This document shows, piece by piece, positions 30,897 to 36,652 of a stretch of DNA of 64,000 nt. The notes below the pieces were generated by a model. It worked only from the letters and a program-made list of their open reading frames with translations. It was not told the origin of the DNA and made no database searches. The DNA lies in the NCBI RefSeq assembly GCF_016865445.1, contig NZ_AP024412.1, forward strand, positions 1,488,001 through 1,552,000. The letters are read 5' to 3'. Made by a program: the position numbers and the translations under genes. Numbering within the stretch: position 1 is the first letter of the stretch; the number at the start of each line of letters is the position of its first letter. The DNA comes from Mariniplasma anaerobium. Lineage in GTDB: Bacteria > Bacillota_I > Bacilli_A > Acholeplasmatales > Acholeplasmataceae.

Positions 30897-30992
30897 TTAC
30901 AGCGGACGCATTAGAAAACCGCCACTATCAGTGTTCGTTCTAATCCAACATCCCATGATTAGACACTTAACGCTTTCCAATTACTCTGCACT
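30897..30992 (-). ncRNA. Tetrahydrofolate (THF) riboswitch
   Basis: The minus strand shows the conserved THF-aptamer blocks in order: AGAGTA (30981-30988), GCGTTAAGTGT, GGGATGTTG, AACGAA, GGCGG and TGCGTCCGC. The conserved 3' and 5' segments can pair as in the known pseudoknotted fold. It sits directly before the folT-like S component, the usual location of this riboswitch. Ends are approximate. Confidence 0.85.
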
Positions 30993-31028: not shown

Positions 31029-31679
31029 TTAACTTAAATCCCAATTGATTGGTTCATATCCATAAGATTTAAGATATTCATTTGTCTTTGAAAAAGGTTT
31101 AGATCCAAAGAATCCACGTCTTGCTGATAGTGGTGAAGGGTGAACAGATGTTATAATTTTATGCTTAGATGAATCAATATACTTAGAAAAACGAATTGCA
31201 TGATTCCCCCATAAAATGAAAACAACACCATCATTTTTTTTATTAATCTCTTTAATCGCTTCTAAAGTAAATATCTCCCATCCTTTTTTCTGATGAGATA
31301 ATGGTTCATGTGCTCTTACAGTTAAAACAGTATTTAAAAGAAATACACCCTGTTTAGCCCATGATGTTAAATTTCCTGTTTTCGGATAAGAAACTCCTAG
31401 ATCAGAGATTAACTCTTTATAAATATTTTTTAAACTTGGTGGATACTTATCATTTAACACACTAAAAGCAAGTCCATGAGCTTGATGATAATTATGATAT
31501 GGATCTTGACCCAAAATAACGACTTTAATATCTTTGTACGGTGTTAAATTAAAACATGACAATCTATACCCCTTTGGAGGTAGAATGTCATGTGTAAGTT
31601 CTTCACTTTTTATAAAATCCATTAATGATTTATAATATGCTTTATGTGATTCTTGTTCGATAAATAAATCCCAAGTCAT
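31029..31679 (-). CDS. ung: Uracil-DNA glycosylase
   Basis: This 216-residue family-1 UDG removes uracil from DNA. The water-activating loop is LGQDPYHNYHQAHGLAFSV and the minor-groove intercalation loop is HPSPLSARRGFFGSKPF. FILWGNHA is also conserved. Its ATG overlaps the stop of the SipW-like peptidase gene (TAATG), so it is at the tail of the matrix operon by position, though its function is unrelated. Confidence 0.96.
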   Translation of the reverse strand: MTWDLFIEQESHKAYYKSLMDFIKSEELTHDILPPKGYRLSCFNLTPYKDIKVVILGQDPYHNYHQAHGLAFSVLNDKYPPSLKNIYKELISDLGVSYPKTGNLTSWAKQGVFLLNTVLTVRAHEPLSHQKKGWEIFTLEAIKEINKKNDGVVFILWGNHAIRFSKYIDSSKHKIITSVHPSPLSARRGFFGSKPFSKTNEYLKSYGYEPINWDLS

Positions 31680-32302
31680 TACTTAACGCCTTCTTCTATA
31701 ACTTCTTGATCTTCTTCTGAATTTTCAGGATCTTTTTTCTTTAGCAGTTTAACAATAACAACGACTATACCTATATTAACAATTAGAAGTCCAATTAAAA
31801 CCGGATTTCTTAATCCTGTAATAACTGTTCCAACAAATGGAACTCTAAAGACATAACCACCAATAACTTGATCATATGTTAAATCAGTGATATTCCCGTT
31901 TTCATCATAAATTGTATCAATTGCTGTATTGTTATCACCTTGCGTAATATATGCCCCAGTTGTATCATCAATATCAATGATTCTATGGACGATTCTTATT
32001 TTAACCCATACAGTTGCACCATTTTGATCTGTGCCTCTGGCATAATTGAAAAATGATATGATATCGTTCTCTTCAATATCATCTTCTGATATTCTTTTTA
32101 AAACGATAATATCACCTGGCTCTATGTTTGGTCTCATAGATTCGGTAGCTGTGGAAATTGAAGTTACTTGAAATCCAAGAATATCAATAACTTTATCTGG
32201 TAAGAAAAGACTTACTGATACATAAGCTAGTAAAAACAAAGTAACTACATAAAATAAAACTGTTTTTATGATGTGATAAGTTTTATTAGGCTTCTTGTCC
32301 AT
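31679..32302 (-). CDS. sipW: SipW-like signal peptidase I (ER type)
   Basis: This 207-residue protein has an N-terminal TM (about 10-32) and a C-terminal TM (about 165-185). The serine motif is TESMRPNIEPGDIIVLKRI and the general-base region is KIRIVHRIIDID, with His where bacterial SPases have Lys. ITQGDNN is box E. The Ser-His form defines the SipW/ER-type subfamily, which in Bacillus processes TasA and TapA. Its operon carries three proteins with matching signal peptides. It overlaps the upstream membrane protein by 17 bp. Catalysis is inferred from motifs only. Confidence 0.88.
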   Translation of the reverse strand: MDKKPNKTYHIIKTVLFYVVTLFLLAYVSVSLFLPDKVIDILGFQVTSISTATESMRPNIEPGDIIVLKRISEDDIEENDIISFFNYARGTDQNGATVWVKIRIVHRIIDIDDTTGAYITQGDNNTAIDTIYDENGNITDLTYDQVIGGYVFRVPFVGTVITGLRNPVLIGLLIVNIGIVVVIVKLLKKKDPENSEEDQEVIEEGVK

Positions 32303-32930
32303 CTTTTAGTACCTCGTTTTCTTTATCTTTTTTCTTATTTTGAATTAAAATATAATGTGCAACATATACAATTAAAGCATGAAAGAAAATCATAATGATA
32401 AATCCTCTTGGTGTAGATGCTGTGTAATAAAACATACCTACAAGATTAGCTTCATTACCTATTTCACCTTGTATTTCATCAAATGTATATGTGTTTTTAA
32501 TATTACCATCATATGTTGCGCGAAGTGTTTGAGCATTAGAATCAATATCAACGACTTCTACTTGCCAATAATAATCACCAACATCATATAATCCATATAT
32601 TAAAATGTCATCTCCAACTTCTATTTCATTTGGATCAATAGATTCTACTCTAGTGACACTACCTACAAGTTGCCCTGTTGCATCTTGATTTTTCTTAAAA
32701 ACAACTCCATATTCGTAGCCCATAAGAGATGAAGAATTTTCTTTTAAGGCTAATGGTAGACCCATGAACACTAAATGAAGCACTGCTAGAATAACAATGC
32801 TCCAAAATATAAGTTTCTTATTAATTTTAAATTTATTTTTATTTTCAAGCTTTTTATATTCTGCAATAGTTTTCTCTTTGGATTGAACCAAAGATAAAAT
32901 TATTTCATCTGTTGTTAAAAAATTATCCAA
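32286..32930 (-). CDS. Membrane protein, degenerate S26-peptidase-like
   Basis: This 214-residue protein is predicted to have a TM at about 42-62, an external domain (70-170) and a TM at about 177-197 with a charged cytoplasmic tail. The layout matches the two flanking S26-like proteins. In the domain, IDPNEIEVGDDILIYG matches the post-serine strand of S26 peptidases (cf. IEENDIISFF), but there is no Ser-Met-x-Pro, no catalytic His or Lys, and no GDN box. I read it as a catalytically dead relative or an unrelated accessory protein. Its position inside the SipW operon suggests a role in handling the secreted substrates. Confidence 0.6.
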   Translation of the reverse strand: MDNFLTTDEIILSLVQSKEKTIAEYKKLENKNKFKINKKLIFWSIVILAVLHLVFMGLPLALKENSSSLMGYEYGVVFKKNQDATGQLVGSVTRVESIDPNEIEVGDDILIYGLYDVGDYYWQVEVVDIDSNAQTLRATYDGNIKNTYTFDEIQGEIGNEANLVGMFYYTASTPRGFIIMIFFHALIVYVAHYILIQNKKKDKENEVLKDGQEA

Positions 32931-32957
32931 TTCTTACACATCCCAAATATCTTGTTA

Positions 32958-33668
32958 CTATTTCTTAGGCTTTTTTGCCTTTTCTACTTCTTTTACTACT
33001 TTTGGCTCTTGTTTCTTTTCTTTTGGTTCTACTTTTTTTTCTACTTTTACAGGTTCTTCTATTTTTTCAATCTTTTTTGTCTCTTTAACTGTTTCAACTT
33101 CTTCAGTTTCTTCTACTTTTTTAACTTCAGGTTTTTGACCTTGTTTAACAATAATAACAATACCTGAAATGATTAAAATATTAATAACAATTGCACCAAT
33201 ACCAAAAGGTGATTTAACAAATTCAATTACTGGTCCTAAAACTGGTAATTTAAATGCATATCCACCAATAATACGATCTGACGTTATCACACCAAAAGGA
33301 ACGGTCGCTCCTTCAGCAATTACAGTAATTCTATAATAATCTTCATTAGCAACTGGAGCAATACTATCAATATAATAAGTAACCATTTCAGTGTCACCAT
33401 CATAATTGATATCTGCCGTAAATGTTATTAAATCGCCCTCTTCTAGATTCTCAGGCTTAACTTTATTAATAAAGACTAAATTATTCGGTTTGATGGTAGG
33501 TTCCATCGTATCATATTTTGCAATATAAGATTTCACTTGGAAAACATTTAATGTTTGACTTGGAATAATAGCTTCCATTAATATAAATAACAAAATAATT
33601 CCCAATATAACAAACATTGACCAAAAAGATACATTTTTGACTATTGATTTCACTTTATCATTATTCAT
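32958..33668 (-). CDS. Signal-peptidase-like membrane protein lacking catalytic residues, K/E-rich tail
   Basis: The product has 236 residues: a TM at about 14-36, an S26-like external domain, a TM at about 150-172 and then about 60 residues of Lys/Glu/Val/Pro-rich cytoplasmic tail. KYDTMEPTIKPNNLVFINKV aligns with the SipW serine box, but the Ser is Thr. VTYYIDSI replaces the catalytic His region and AEGATV replaces the GDN box, while DRIIGGYAFKLPVLGPVI matches the SipW protein's VIGGYVFRVPFVGTV. It is therefore a paralogue of the SipW-like enzyme that has probably lost activity. RBS AGGGTGG lies 6-7 nt before the ATG. Confidence 0.75.
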   Translation of the reverse strand: MNNDKVKSIVKNVSFWSMFVILGIILLFILMEAIIPSQTLNVFQVKSYIAKYDTMEPTIKPNNLVFINKVKPENLEEGDLITFTADINYDGDTEMVTYYIDSIAPVANEDYYRITVIAEGATVPFGVITSDRIIGGYAFKLPVLGPVIEFVKSPFGIGAIVINILIISGIVIIVKQGQKPEVKKVEETEEVETVKETKKIEKIEEPVKVEKKVEPKEKKQEPKVVKEVEKAKKPKK

Positions 33669-33770
33669 TTTCAGACCACCCTATCTTATAAATATCGATA
33701 TTATTATATCATATATTTTATAATTTTATGGTAAAGGCAAAGTATTATTATATATTTTTTAGATTTACAC

Positions 33771-35078
33771 TTAATTTTGATACAACTCCCAAGCTAAACT
33801 TGAACCTGCTAAATCAGGTTGTTGGTTTGTCGTTTGAGTTAAAGCAATATAAACTGCATCGTCATAATAAACGATATCTCCTGCACTATAAACATTAAAC
33901 CAATAATATTGATAACCACTAATTTGATTCCATGCATTAGCTATAGTTCCGGGTGCATTATTGTTTGCGTTTGTAGCATTTACGACTTGATATACATTTG
34001 AATTATAAACTGTATATTCACCTAATTGATATACATTTAATGCATTATAATTAATTGTTGCCATACCATTCCAACTATTTGTAGTTGTGCCTGGTATATT
34101 AGATGAATTAGTAACATTTGCTAATTCATATACATTTGTTTGATACATAACTAGATCACCATTTACATAGGTGTTATATTGCTGCCACTGTTGTGTGTTG
34201 ATTGCTTGCCATATACCTTTAGATGCTAATGTTCCTGGTTGAATATTTCTTTTTTGCCCATTAATAGCAACTAACGCTTTATAAAATATGCCATTATATA
34301 ATGTATATTTGGTATTATTTGGAACACTACCATTAAATGTTGGAACTGTTAATGCAGTCCATGCAGCATTTGTGCCTGGAACTGATCCTGATGCCCAACC
34401 GCCATTAGTTGTCGTATAATAAGTGCCATTATATAAGGTAAAGTCTCCATTTGCATAAACATAATTTGTTGAATAAGTTAAATTTCCAACTAAAGCCCAA
34501 TCATTTTGTGATCCTGGCTCTGATGTTGTATAGTAACCTTTATAAATCCACAATGCTCCATCAAAAAAGACAATTTCATTAAGATTTGTAGCTTGACCTG
34601 TGACCCAAGATAGAGTATCCGTTACTTGATTTTCCCATGGACCATTAACACCAGTTGTAATCGGATCATTATTGGTCTGTTCCCATTTAGAGAGATAGAT
34701 ATTATCGTTGTAATAAATAAGATCATCTAATCTATAGGTAACAGTTGAATACCAGTTAAGATCATTGTAGATAGTCCAATTGTTTGCTGTTGAAGGTATA
34801 TTATTTAATGAAGTATATCCATGATTTACCCAAATATTACCGTCATACCAAATAATATCTCCATTTGCATAACTTGTTGATTCATCATAATAACTTATTC
34901 CATCTGGTGAATATGGACCAAATGTCCATGAACCTATGGTTACTTCACCATTTGAGTTTGTTTGACTTCCTAAAATAGAGTTTGCCCAAAAGGTATATGT
35001 ATCTTGAGTAGATAATGATAACATGAAAAGAATCATGAGTAAGCATGATGAAAGTATTCTTTTATGTATATTTTTCAT
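33771..35078 (-). CDS. Secreted tandem-repeat protein with SipW-type signal peptide (CBM5/12-like repeats)
   Basis: The product has 435 residues. The signal peptide ends in TYTFWANS (residues 27-34), followed by NSNGEVTIGSW, the same pattern as its two neighbours. The rest is about eight repeats of 40-45 residues of the form Y..GD.vyYn...Y.......N..PG....W, for example YANGDFTLYNGTYYTT and YSAGDIVYYDDAVYIA. This is the look of small carbohydrate-binding modules (ChiC/CBM5-12 or similar), rich in exposed Trp and Tyr. No catalytic domain is seen. RBS GGAGGTGAT. It probably binds surface glycans or carbohydrate; the ligand is unknown. Confidence 0.75.
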   Translation of the reverse strand: MKNIHKRILSSCLLMILFMLSLSTQDTYTFWANSILGSQTNSNGEVTIGSWTFGPYSPDGISYYDESTSYANGDIIWYDGNIWVNHGYTSLNNIPSTANNWTIYNDLNWYSTVTYRLDDLIYYNDNIYLSKWEQTNNDPITTGVNGPWENQVTDTLSWVTGQATNLNEIVFFDGALWIYKGYYTTSEPGSQNDWALVGNLTYSTNYVYANGDFTLYNGTYYTTTNGGWASGSVPGTNAAWTALTVPTFNGSVPNNTKYTLYNGIFYKALVAINGQKRNIQPGTLASKGIWQAINTQQWQQYNTYVNGDLVMYQTNVYELANVTNSSNIPGTTTNSWNGMATINYNALNVYQLGEYTVYNSNVYQVVNATNANNNAPGTIANAWNQISGYQYYWFNVYSAGDIVYYDDAVYIALTQTTNQQPDLAGSSLAWELYQN

Positions 35079-35104
35079 ATTATCACCTCCATATTTTTTG
35101 CTAT

Positions 35105-35132
35105 AAAAGCGACTATAAGAAGTCGCTTTTTT
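35105..35132 (-). terminator. Intra-operon terminator/attenuator
   Basis: The 10-bp perfect stem AAAAGCGACT/AGTCGCTTTT with a 6-nt loop lies between the TasA-like gene and the repeat-protein gene. The T run on the minus strand is short, so partial readthrough is expected, which would give more of the upstream subunits than of the downstream genes. Confidence 0.7.
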
Positions 35133-35170
35133 GCTTAGTCATTTTTATTGTAAATAATTTTTACAATTAA

Positions 35171-35755
35171 TTAAGGTGTTACTGTAAATGTTACGGTGAA
35201 AACAACATCTTGACCTGTAACATCGTCATAGATTCCTTCTGTAGTTGGTTCAGTCATTTGAACTAGTACATATACTGGAACTGTTGAACCCGCGTCAGCT
35301 GAAATAGCAGTATCTGCTGTGCCAGTTAAAGAATAACTTGAAGCTCCAGTAGTTACTGTAGGAGCAGCTCCACCTATTTGGTAAGAAACTAAAAATAATG
35401 AATTAAATTCAACAGAATTAACTTCTCTATCGCCAATTGCAACACTAAGTGCACCTACTGTACCATCACCTAAGTCATCTGTACTATCCCAAGCAACATC
35501 AAAAGTAAGTAATACATATTCTACAGGTGACCCTGCACTAACACCACTAAGTCCAAAAGGTACTAAAGCACCTGCACTAGTTTCATCTCCAACTGTAACT
35601 GTTGTAGCAACCGTATCACCAGCACCAATTGTAACTGTTCCAGATGCTGTGTCATTATTTCCAGTTACTGAACCTGCCCAAAATGCAAATGTAAATCCAC
35701 TAACTGCTACTGCTAACATAACTAATAAACCTATAACTAATTTTCTTTGTTTCAT
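35171..35755 (-). CDS. TasA/camelysin-like secreted protein, SipW-dependent signal peptide
   Basis: The product has 194 residues. The signal peptide contains a long hydrophobic core and ends FTFAFWAGSVTGNND (residues 21-35), then TASGTVTIGAGD, the SipW-substrate pattern (T/A-F-A-F-W/F ... n..aGt..ig). The mature 165 or so residues are acidic, Thr/Val/Gly-rich and predicted all-beta, with no Cys, like TasA-type fibre subunits. It ends VVFTVTFTVTP; the neighbour at 35810 ends in a related LSFTLSFTVLP strand. The RBS AAGGAGA is strong. By position and codon richness it may be the most abundant product. A fibre role is inferred from family resemblance. Confidence 0.78.
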   Translation of the reverse strand: MKQRKLVIGLLVMLAVAVSGFTFAFWAGSVTGNNDTASGTVTIGAGDTVATTVTVGDETSAGALVPFGLSGVSAGSPVEYVLLTFDVAWDSTDDLGDGTVGALSVAIGDREVNSVEFNSLFLVSYQIGGAAPTVTTGASSYSLTGTADTAISADAGSTVPVYVLVQMTEPTTEGIYDDVTGQDVVFTVTFTVTP

Positions 35756-35809
35756 AATTTTTTTCTCCTTTTAATCTTTCCGATTTTTTATTTTTTCTTT
35801 TTTTTTATT

Positions 35810-36382
35810 TTATTCTTCTGATTCTTTCGGTAAAACAGTAAAGCTTAATGTAAAACTTAAATCTTGTCCATTAATTGCTTCGAATGCGGCTACCGAATCA
35901 TCCACATTGGCAAGTAAGGGATCTTCCACTTCAGTTAAATCAAGTGGTTCTAACAATCTAATCACAACTGTAATTACAACTTCTGAGTTAAATAACTCAT
36001 TTGTATGAATATCTTTAGATCCATTAATTTGGATATCTACAAGATGTGCATACTCTGTTGAATCACCAATCTTGACTTCAATAGCTTCTACAATTAAGTT
36101 CACACTTTTAACCAGTGTTTTATCTATTGAAACAGTATAAACGAACGTTGCTGATTCTTTTTCACCTAGGAAGACTGCTTGTCCTTCAGGAACTAATGTG
36201 CCGGTAAACGAAGTTCCAGTCTCTGTTATCTGTAAATTTGCTTGCTCTCCGCCAAATTCAATAATTACATTTGAATTTGTATTGACATCATTCCAATAAG
36301 CAACTGCGGCAGTTGATGTAAACGCTAGTCCTACAATCAACAAGATGATAATAATAATTTGAATGTGTTTTGCTTTTAGCAC
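35810..36382 (-). CDS. TasA/camelysin-like secreted protein, first gene after c-di-GMP riboswitch
   Basis: The product has 190 residues. The start is a GTG at 36382 with GGGAGGT 6-7 nt upstream; the overlapping ATG one base earlier leads to an immediate stop. The signal peptide core IIIIILLIVGLAF is followed by TAAVAYWNDVNTNSNV (residues 24-39), a SipW-type cleavage region. The mature part is acidic and beta-rich and ends with DLSFTLSFTVLP, echoing the C-terminus of the next gene. It is the first reading frame after the riboswitch and terminator, thus the most directly ligand-controlled. It could be a minor subunit, anchor or initiator (TapA-like); that is inference. Confidence 0.75.
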   Translation of the reverse strand: MLKAKHIQIIIIILLIVGLAFTSTAAVAYWNDVNTNSNVIIEFGGEQANLQITETGTSFTGTLVPEGQAVFLGEKESATFVYTVSIDKTLVKSVNLIVEAIEVKIGDSTEYAHLVDIQINGSKDIHTNELFNSEVVITVVIRLLEPLDLTEVEDPLLANVDDSVAAFEAINGQDLSFTLSFTVLPKESEE

Positions 36383-36414
36383 ATATAATACCTCCCTCTT
36401 CAGGCTATTAAAAA

Positions 36415-36437
36415 AGCCAACGTTAGTACGGTTGACT
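36415..36437 (-). terminator. Riboswitch-associated terminator
   Basis: On the minus strand AGTCAAC/GTTGGCT (one G-U pair) with a 9-nt loop is followed by six T. It stands about 80 nt downstream of the c-di-GMP aptamer and 33 nt before the first start codon, as expected for a transcriptional expression platform. Confidence 0.7.
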
Positions 36438-36514
36438 ATCAGTGCTCTTCTTTATATAAAATAAAAAGGCTCTTGATAATCAGTAAGTCATGTATTATTC
36501 AAATCGAATAATTT

Positions 36515-36588
36515 CAATGACAACTGGCTACCATTAACAGGCCCTGTAGTTTTGCGTCCTTAGATTTCCCTAAGTTTGCCTTTTACAT
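36515..36588 (-). ncRNA. Cyclic di-GMP-I riboswitch (GEMM-I)
   Basis: The minus strand reads AAAAGGCAAACUUAGGGAAA, then UCUAAGGACGCAAAACUACA, then GGGCCUG and GGUAGCCAG. These are the GEMM-I hallmarks in order: GGCAAAC, a stem capped by a GAAA tetraloop, GACGCAAA, then GGGCC and the G-rich second stem with its receptor. It is followed by a terminator and by the SipW/TasA-like operon. Aptamer ends are approximate. Confidence 0.85.
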
Positions 36589-36624
36589 TTTTTTAGAACT
36601 GCTCGATAATAGCAATTCACGTAA

Positions 36625-36652
36625 ATTATATAACAAATATCAAATTTGTCAA
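36625..36652 (-). promoter_or_regulatory. Promoter of the c-di-GMP-controlled operon
   Basis: -35 TTGACA (36647-36652) and -10 TATAAT (36625-36630) have a 16-nt spacer, about 35-40 nt before the aptamer. Confidence 0.85.

Follow-up and report, generated by a model that had tools for sequence, protein, structure and literature searches.

The locus under study raises the question of whether a wall-less bacterium controls an operon of SipW-type secreted proteins directly by c-di-GMP, and whether the encoded proteins assemble into fibres in the manner of TasA. The operon is located on the reverse strand of the analysed window, the whole stretch of 64,000 nucleotides, which belongs to an Acholeplasmataceae genome of 1.9 Mb with a completeness of 99.98%. 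The open reading frames of the window are intact under translation table 11 with TGA as a stop codon.

Regulatory leader and gene content of the operon

The leader of the operon starts with a sigma-70-type promoter (36625..36652) whose sequence, TTGACA-16-TATAAT, matches at 12 of 12 positions and bears out the consensus promoter of the original prediction; 11-12 of the 12 positions are retained in ten orthologous leaders. The end of the promoter is followed after 34 bases by an aptamer that was detected with the Rfam covariance model RF01051 at 62.8 bits (gathering cut-off 35, E 6.6e-10) over model positions 1-87 of 87. The covariance search thus confirmed the anticipated GEMM-I element at full length, with the correction that it occupies positions 36516..36590 instead of 36515-36588. 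Judged by this match, the RNA is by class a c-di-GMP-I (GEMM-I) riboswitch, and it is predicted to bind its ligand. Position 20 of the alignment, which we take to be the discriminator between c-di-GMP and cGAMP, is a G in the window aptamer, by which cGAMP specificity of this RNA was ruled out. The same position is G in 93, A in five and unclear in five of the 103 aptamers of the regulon set, which comprises 85 sites or clusters. The five aptamers with A20 are those of L020, L092, L093, L109 and L125; in GEMM-I RNAs from elsewhere, an A at this position is associated with a preference for cGAMP. Between the aptamer and the first gene, and directly upstream of the latter, lies the expected intrinsic terminator (36410..36437), AGUCAAC...GUUGGCU with a U-tract, the full sequence of which is GUCAACCGUACUAACGUUGGC-UUUUUU.

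The first three genes of the operon encode secreted proteins with a candidate SipW-type signal, which are named here after the motif that follows the hydrophobic stretch: the AYW protein (35810..36382; AVAYW), a predicted beta-sandwich, the AFW protein (35171..35755; FAFW), a candidate major subunit, and the TFW protein (33771..35078; YTFW), a candidate adhesin that contains CBM5/12 repeats in four stretches (PF02839, E 8.1e-8). The AFW and AYW proteins are homologues of one another (hhalign 99%). All three motifs are present as predicted, but the cut-off of the SipW-dependent signal model TIGR04088 was not reached: the AYW protein of the window scored 15.2 bits against a cut-off of 19, and the AFW and TFW proteins of the window gave no match to this model. 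Among the AYW orthologues, 14 of 22 match TIGR04088 at E <= 1, the best value being 4.5e-4.

The Ser-His peptidase of the SipW type is encoded at 31679..32302 and was verified as a member of the archaeal/SipW-type signal peptidases of family S26 by TIGR02228 (55.8 bits, cut-off 51.85) and by retention of the catalytic residues Ser (ESMRP) and His (VHRI); the Bacillus SipW equivalog NF046067 was not reached (37.7 bits, threshold 190). The peptidase complement turned out to be larger than the single enzyme originally described, in that the operon contains three S26-like membrane proteins. One of the two others (32958..33668) carries exchanges of Ser to Thr and of His to Tyr, and the other (32286..32930) is a distant S26-like membrane protein devoid of the catalytic residues (hhalign 98% against an S26 alignment). 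From these residues, both proteins are probably inactive and may serve in assembly or anchoring. Ser and His are retained in most orthologues of the 32958..33668 protein from other genera, while both residues are lost in this genus, in L190 and in L175. Processing of the secreted proteins by a SipW-type mechanism is likely. The third S26-like gene is followed by udg and then by folT with its THF riboswitch (window 30898-30990), which is kept beside the operon in relatives as well.

A further terminator-like hairpin (35105..35130) is located downstream of the AFW gene; its sequence varies, and a similar hairpin was found in 16 of 21 relatives. It fits a high expression of the AYW and AFW genes and a lower expression of the downstream genes, as is expected for a major subunit. 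This hairpin, along with an AT-rich gap of 102 bases ahead of the gene starting at 33668, leaves the co-transcription of the peptidase genes unproven, and both features speak for a rather unlikely alternative, in which control by c-di-GMP would be limited to the AYW and AFW genes, the CBM and S26 genes having promoters of their own and the peptidase being constitutively expressed. Against this partial control, promoter-like sites are not enriched within the operon (30 versus 28.8 expected), and the order of the genes is conserved across genera. Control of the operon by the riboswitch is very likely, and the claim of a SipW-type operon under direct c-di-GMP control in a mollicute was upheld by the covariance score, the promoter, the design of alternative folds, the conservation of the locus and the GGDEF/EAL proteins of the host, the last three of which are described below.

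Possible likeness of the secreted proteins to TasA

The designation of the secreted proteins as TasA-like was examined at the levels of sequence and fold. In searches of Pfam and NCBIfam, none of the orthologues matched TasA or camelysin by sequence, and the host genome is likewise without a match to PF12389. A profile comparison with PF12389-type proteins produced an alignment that is confined to the signal region, and membership in the TasA family by sequence was rejected on these grounds. A search of the PDB sequences with the AFW and AYW alignments likewise yielded nothing relevant. The AlphaFold models of the AFW and AYW proteins (pLDDT 80 and 78, respectively) consist of a signal helix and a beta-strand domain. 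By means of VIA-align, the AFW model was matched to TasA (5OF2) with a Z value of 6.0 over 121 residues and 17% identity, and the AYW model to the TasA fibre (8AUR) with a Z value of 6.5 over 125 residues, in both cases among rows of similar Z. In the Foldseek search with the AYW model, 8AUR was found with a probability of 1.00 and the highest query TM-score among the matches listed, which also include donor-strand pilins; the AFW model gave no Foldseek match with E <0.001, its top rows being unrelated beta-sandwiches. The predicted structures thus list TasA, as the name proposed for these proteins would suggest, but only among middling matches (Z <8, no Foldseek E <0.001) mixed with unrelated beta-sandwiches, and the mature sequences do not support the name. 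Since Z values of this size are common, the likeness to the TasA fold is suggestive only.

The chances that the AYW and AFW proteins form TasA-like filaments are about even in our estimation. An unlikely alternative accepts the export and the riboswitch as described and regards the products as a non-fibrous coat or as adhesins, i.e. as monomeric beta-sandwiches at the membrane. This would agree with the missing sequence match to TasA, with fold matches among which are adhesive beta-sandwich domains, collagen-binding ones included, and with the CBM5/12 repeats of the third protein. On the other hand, TasA is listed for both models and donor-strand pilins additionally for that of AYW, and two homologous small subunits that are encoded together with a dedicated peptidase, the second gene being followed by a hairpin, resemble the organization of fibre operons.

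Direction of the switch and proposed mechanism

The direction of the switch was deduced from computed alternative pairings within the leader. According to duplex energies and the overlap of pairing segments, a switching strand, AUGACUUACUGAUUAUC (36475..36491), has two alternative partners, namely the aptamer 3' strand and the terminator 5' arm. In the leader of the window, the helix formed with the aptamer 3' strand ends a few bases before a U-tract, and it is the second terminator that carries the switch. In all ten orthologous leaders compared, one and the same part of the linker pairs best with the aptamer 3' strand and also with the terminator 5' arm, the two pairing segments overlapping by 6-15 bases and the sequences varying between genera. 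The same shared-segment design was found in nine further leaders, and in six additional leaders no terminator was detected by the script. As the compared leaders are related, their agreement is not independent. In the leaders of L176, L177 and L184, a second terminator was not found and a hairpin that overlaps the aptamer and is followed by a U-tract is present. Across the 85 sites, the pairing of the aptamer 3' strand with the segment ending at the U-tract has a median energy of -14.5 kcal/mol, compared with -5.9 for shuffled sequences; the corresponding values for units within tandem arrays are -14.6 and -4.7. Tandem units accordingly pair as single sites do, and each tandem copy has the appearance of a complete switch.

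When the outer aptamer helix was forced in equilibrium folding of the window leader, the probability of the terminator fell from 0.79 to 0.04. A clear drop was obtained in only three of the ten leaders, namely that of the window and two others in which the value fell to about 0.4, and in most of the remaining ones the terminator probability stayed above 0.9, so that the ON reading of the latter rests on the order of folding. Since a ligand-held aptamer frees the strand that breaks the terminator, the computed pairings point to an ON switch, and it is likely that c-di-GMP turns the operon on. An OFF switch, by which c-di-GMP would lower the expression of the operon, is improbable: riboswitches whose aptamers closely resemble each other can act in either direction (PMC9262584) and equilibrium folding of several leaders prefers the terminator even when the outer helix of the aptamer is in place, but the strand that breaks the terminator is the one sequestered by the ligand-free aptamer strand, the terminator of L186 is compact and overlaps the aptamer, and the effect computed for the window is large and points to ON.

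Under the ON reading, transcription would start at about position 36618, just below the promoter. In the absence of c-di-GMP, the switching strand would pair with the aptamer 3' strand, the terminator would form and transcription would halt. With c-di-GMP bound, the aptamer would retain its own 3' strand, and the switching strand thus freed would capture the 5' arm of the terminator, allowing the polymerase to enter the operon. The AYW, AFW and CBM proteins would then be exported, with the Ser-His S26 peptidase of the operon cutting near the aromatic residue. The AFW protein is the likely major subunit and the AYW protein may be a minor or starter subunit; together they would build a filament or matrix that is associated with the membrane and functions as TasA/TapA do, and the CBM protein would act as an adhesin. 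Processing, polymerization and matrix function are inferred steps of this scheme. Taken as a whole, the explanation of the locus as a c-di-GMP-activated operon for surface proteins that form filaments or a matrix in the way of TasA/TapA appears somewhat more probable than not. A bolder extension is quite unlikely, namely that the Acholeplasmataceae possess a c-di-GMP-induced filament matrix or exoskeleton that would be encoded by at least two riboswitch operons, in which tandem switches would make the response sharper and the inactive S26-like proteins would be membrane anchors or assembly factors.

Host background, known systems and distribution of the riboswitch-SipW link

The assignment of the operon to a wall-less mollicute was corroborated by several searches. 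The PBP transpeptidase (PF00905) is absent from all 37 family genomes, a search of the host genome gave no match to FtsW/RodA (PF01098), and the murC model reached only 26 of 335 bits in it. These profile searches support a host without peptidoglycan synthesis, and the relative Peloplasma was shown by electron microscopy to be devoid of a wall (PMC11122141). The host genome encodes 19 GGDEF and six EAL proteins, and the GG(D/E)E motif is present in 11 of 12 GGDEF domains inspected. Similarly, the wall-less Acholeplasma laidlawii has many c-di-GMP enzymes, with 14 GGDEF/EAL proteins, but the respective paper names no output of the signal (PMC2408644). A named c-di-GMP output in wall-less bacteria was not found in the openly licensed literature.

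Among the closest known systems are the tapA-sipW-tasA operon of Bacillus subtilis and the sipW-calY operon of B. cereus, which share with the window operon the presence of two subunits and a dedicated SipW-type S26 peptidase adjoining small secreted proteins that are rich in beta-strands and have an aromatic residue where cleavage occurs (PMC9674648, PMC10151520). In contrast to these systems, the mature sequences of the window proteins are not recognizably TasA, peptidoglycan is absent, the gene set is extended by a CBM protein and by S26-like proteins that are probably inactive, and the operon is preceded by a riboswitch, which is unreported for Bacillus in these two papers. The sipW-bsaA operon of Clostridium perfringens also combines a SipW-type peptidase with a secreted protein, in that case one that polymerizes outside the cell (PMC7395162); the clostridial system is temperature-controlled, belongs to a walled cell and is described in that paper without a c-di-GMP riboswitch. 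In Clostridioides difficile, riboswitches including ON switches act directly on surface adhesins and pili, but the genes controlled there are for sortase-dependent proteins and type IV pili of a walled cell, and the adhesin and pilus ON switches belong to class II, compared with class I in the window (PMC6200980). In the openly licensed literature, no paper was found in which a c-di-GMP riboswitch is connected to a SipW operon or to Acholeplasma. Riboswitch class and secretion route are known, and the combination and the lineage appear to be new. RNA switches that precede operons for surface proteins represent a likely, direct and testable output of c-di-GMP in wall-less bacteria. If the proposed scheme is true, a biofilm-type programme has outlived the loss of the cell wall, which can be tested in cultured Peloplasma aerotolerans.

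The AFW profile detected 25 loci in named genomes, the majority of which carry the label Acholeplasmataceae, Acholeplasma or Tenericutes. The recurrent gene order is gapA - GEMM-I - AYW - AFW - (CBM) - S26 - S26-like - S26 - udg, with the CBM gene often present. A GEMM-I element was located upstream of the orthologous operon in 24 of the 25 loci by cmscan; at the remaining locus (L181), the aptamer begins normally and then runs into Ns. GEMM-I elements were found in 35 of 61 related genomes. At 64 of the 85 sites, a SipW-type protein is encoded among the first three open reading frames, and at least two such proteins are encoded at 51. These counts are based on a home-made SipW-motif filter, a looser version with a measured background being used because a strict one missed obvious cases. 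The filter marked 139 of 218 open reading frames behind riboswitches, compared with eight of 336 background frames from 20 sampled stretches. Among the 21 filter-negative sites, some are located at contig ends, and L110 carries a YGYW motif that the filter overlooked. GEMM-I also precedes SipW-type proteins in members of the order that do possess PBPs (G045, G047 and G057). Accordingly, the link is not restricted to wall-less members, and it may predate the loss of the wall.

The host genome contains six GEMM-I sites, one of which heads the window operon. Three tandem elements and one internal element belong to a second operon (L019, G000:C1:1198000-1216500; 1.20-1.215 Mb) that is kept in relatives and encodes five SipW-type proteins, two S26 peptidases, an AAA_5 ATPase with a DUF2357 partner and a protein of more than 2300 amino acids. 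The sixth element (L020) is located upstream of a PAS-domain gene. The PAS/histidine-kinase gene that follows this GEMM-I element appears to be interrupted by a transposase-like gene encoded on the opposite strand (L020, 7187-8482).
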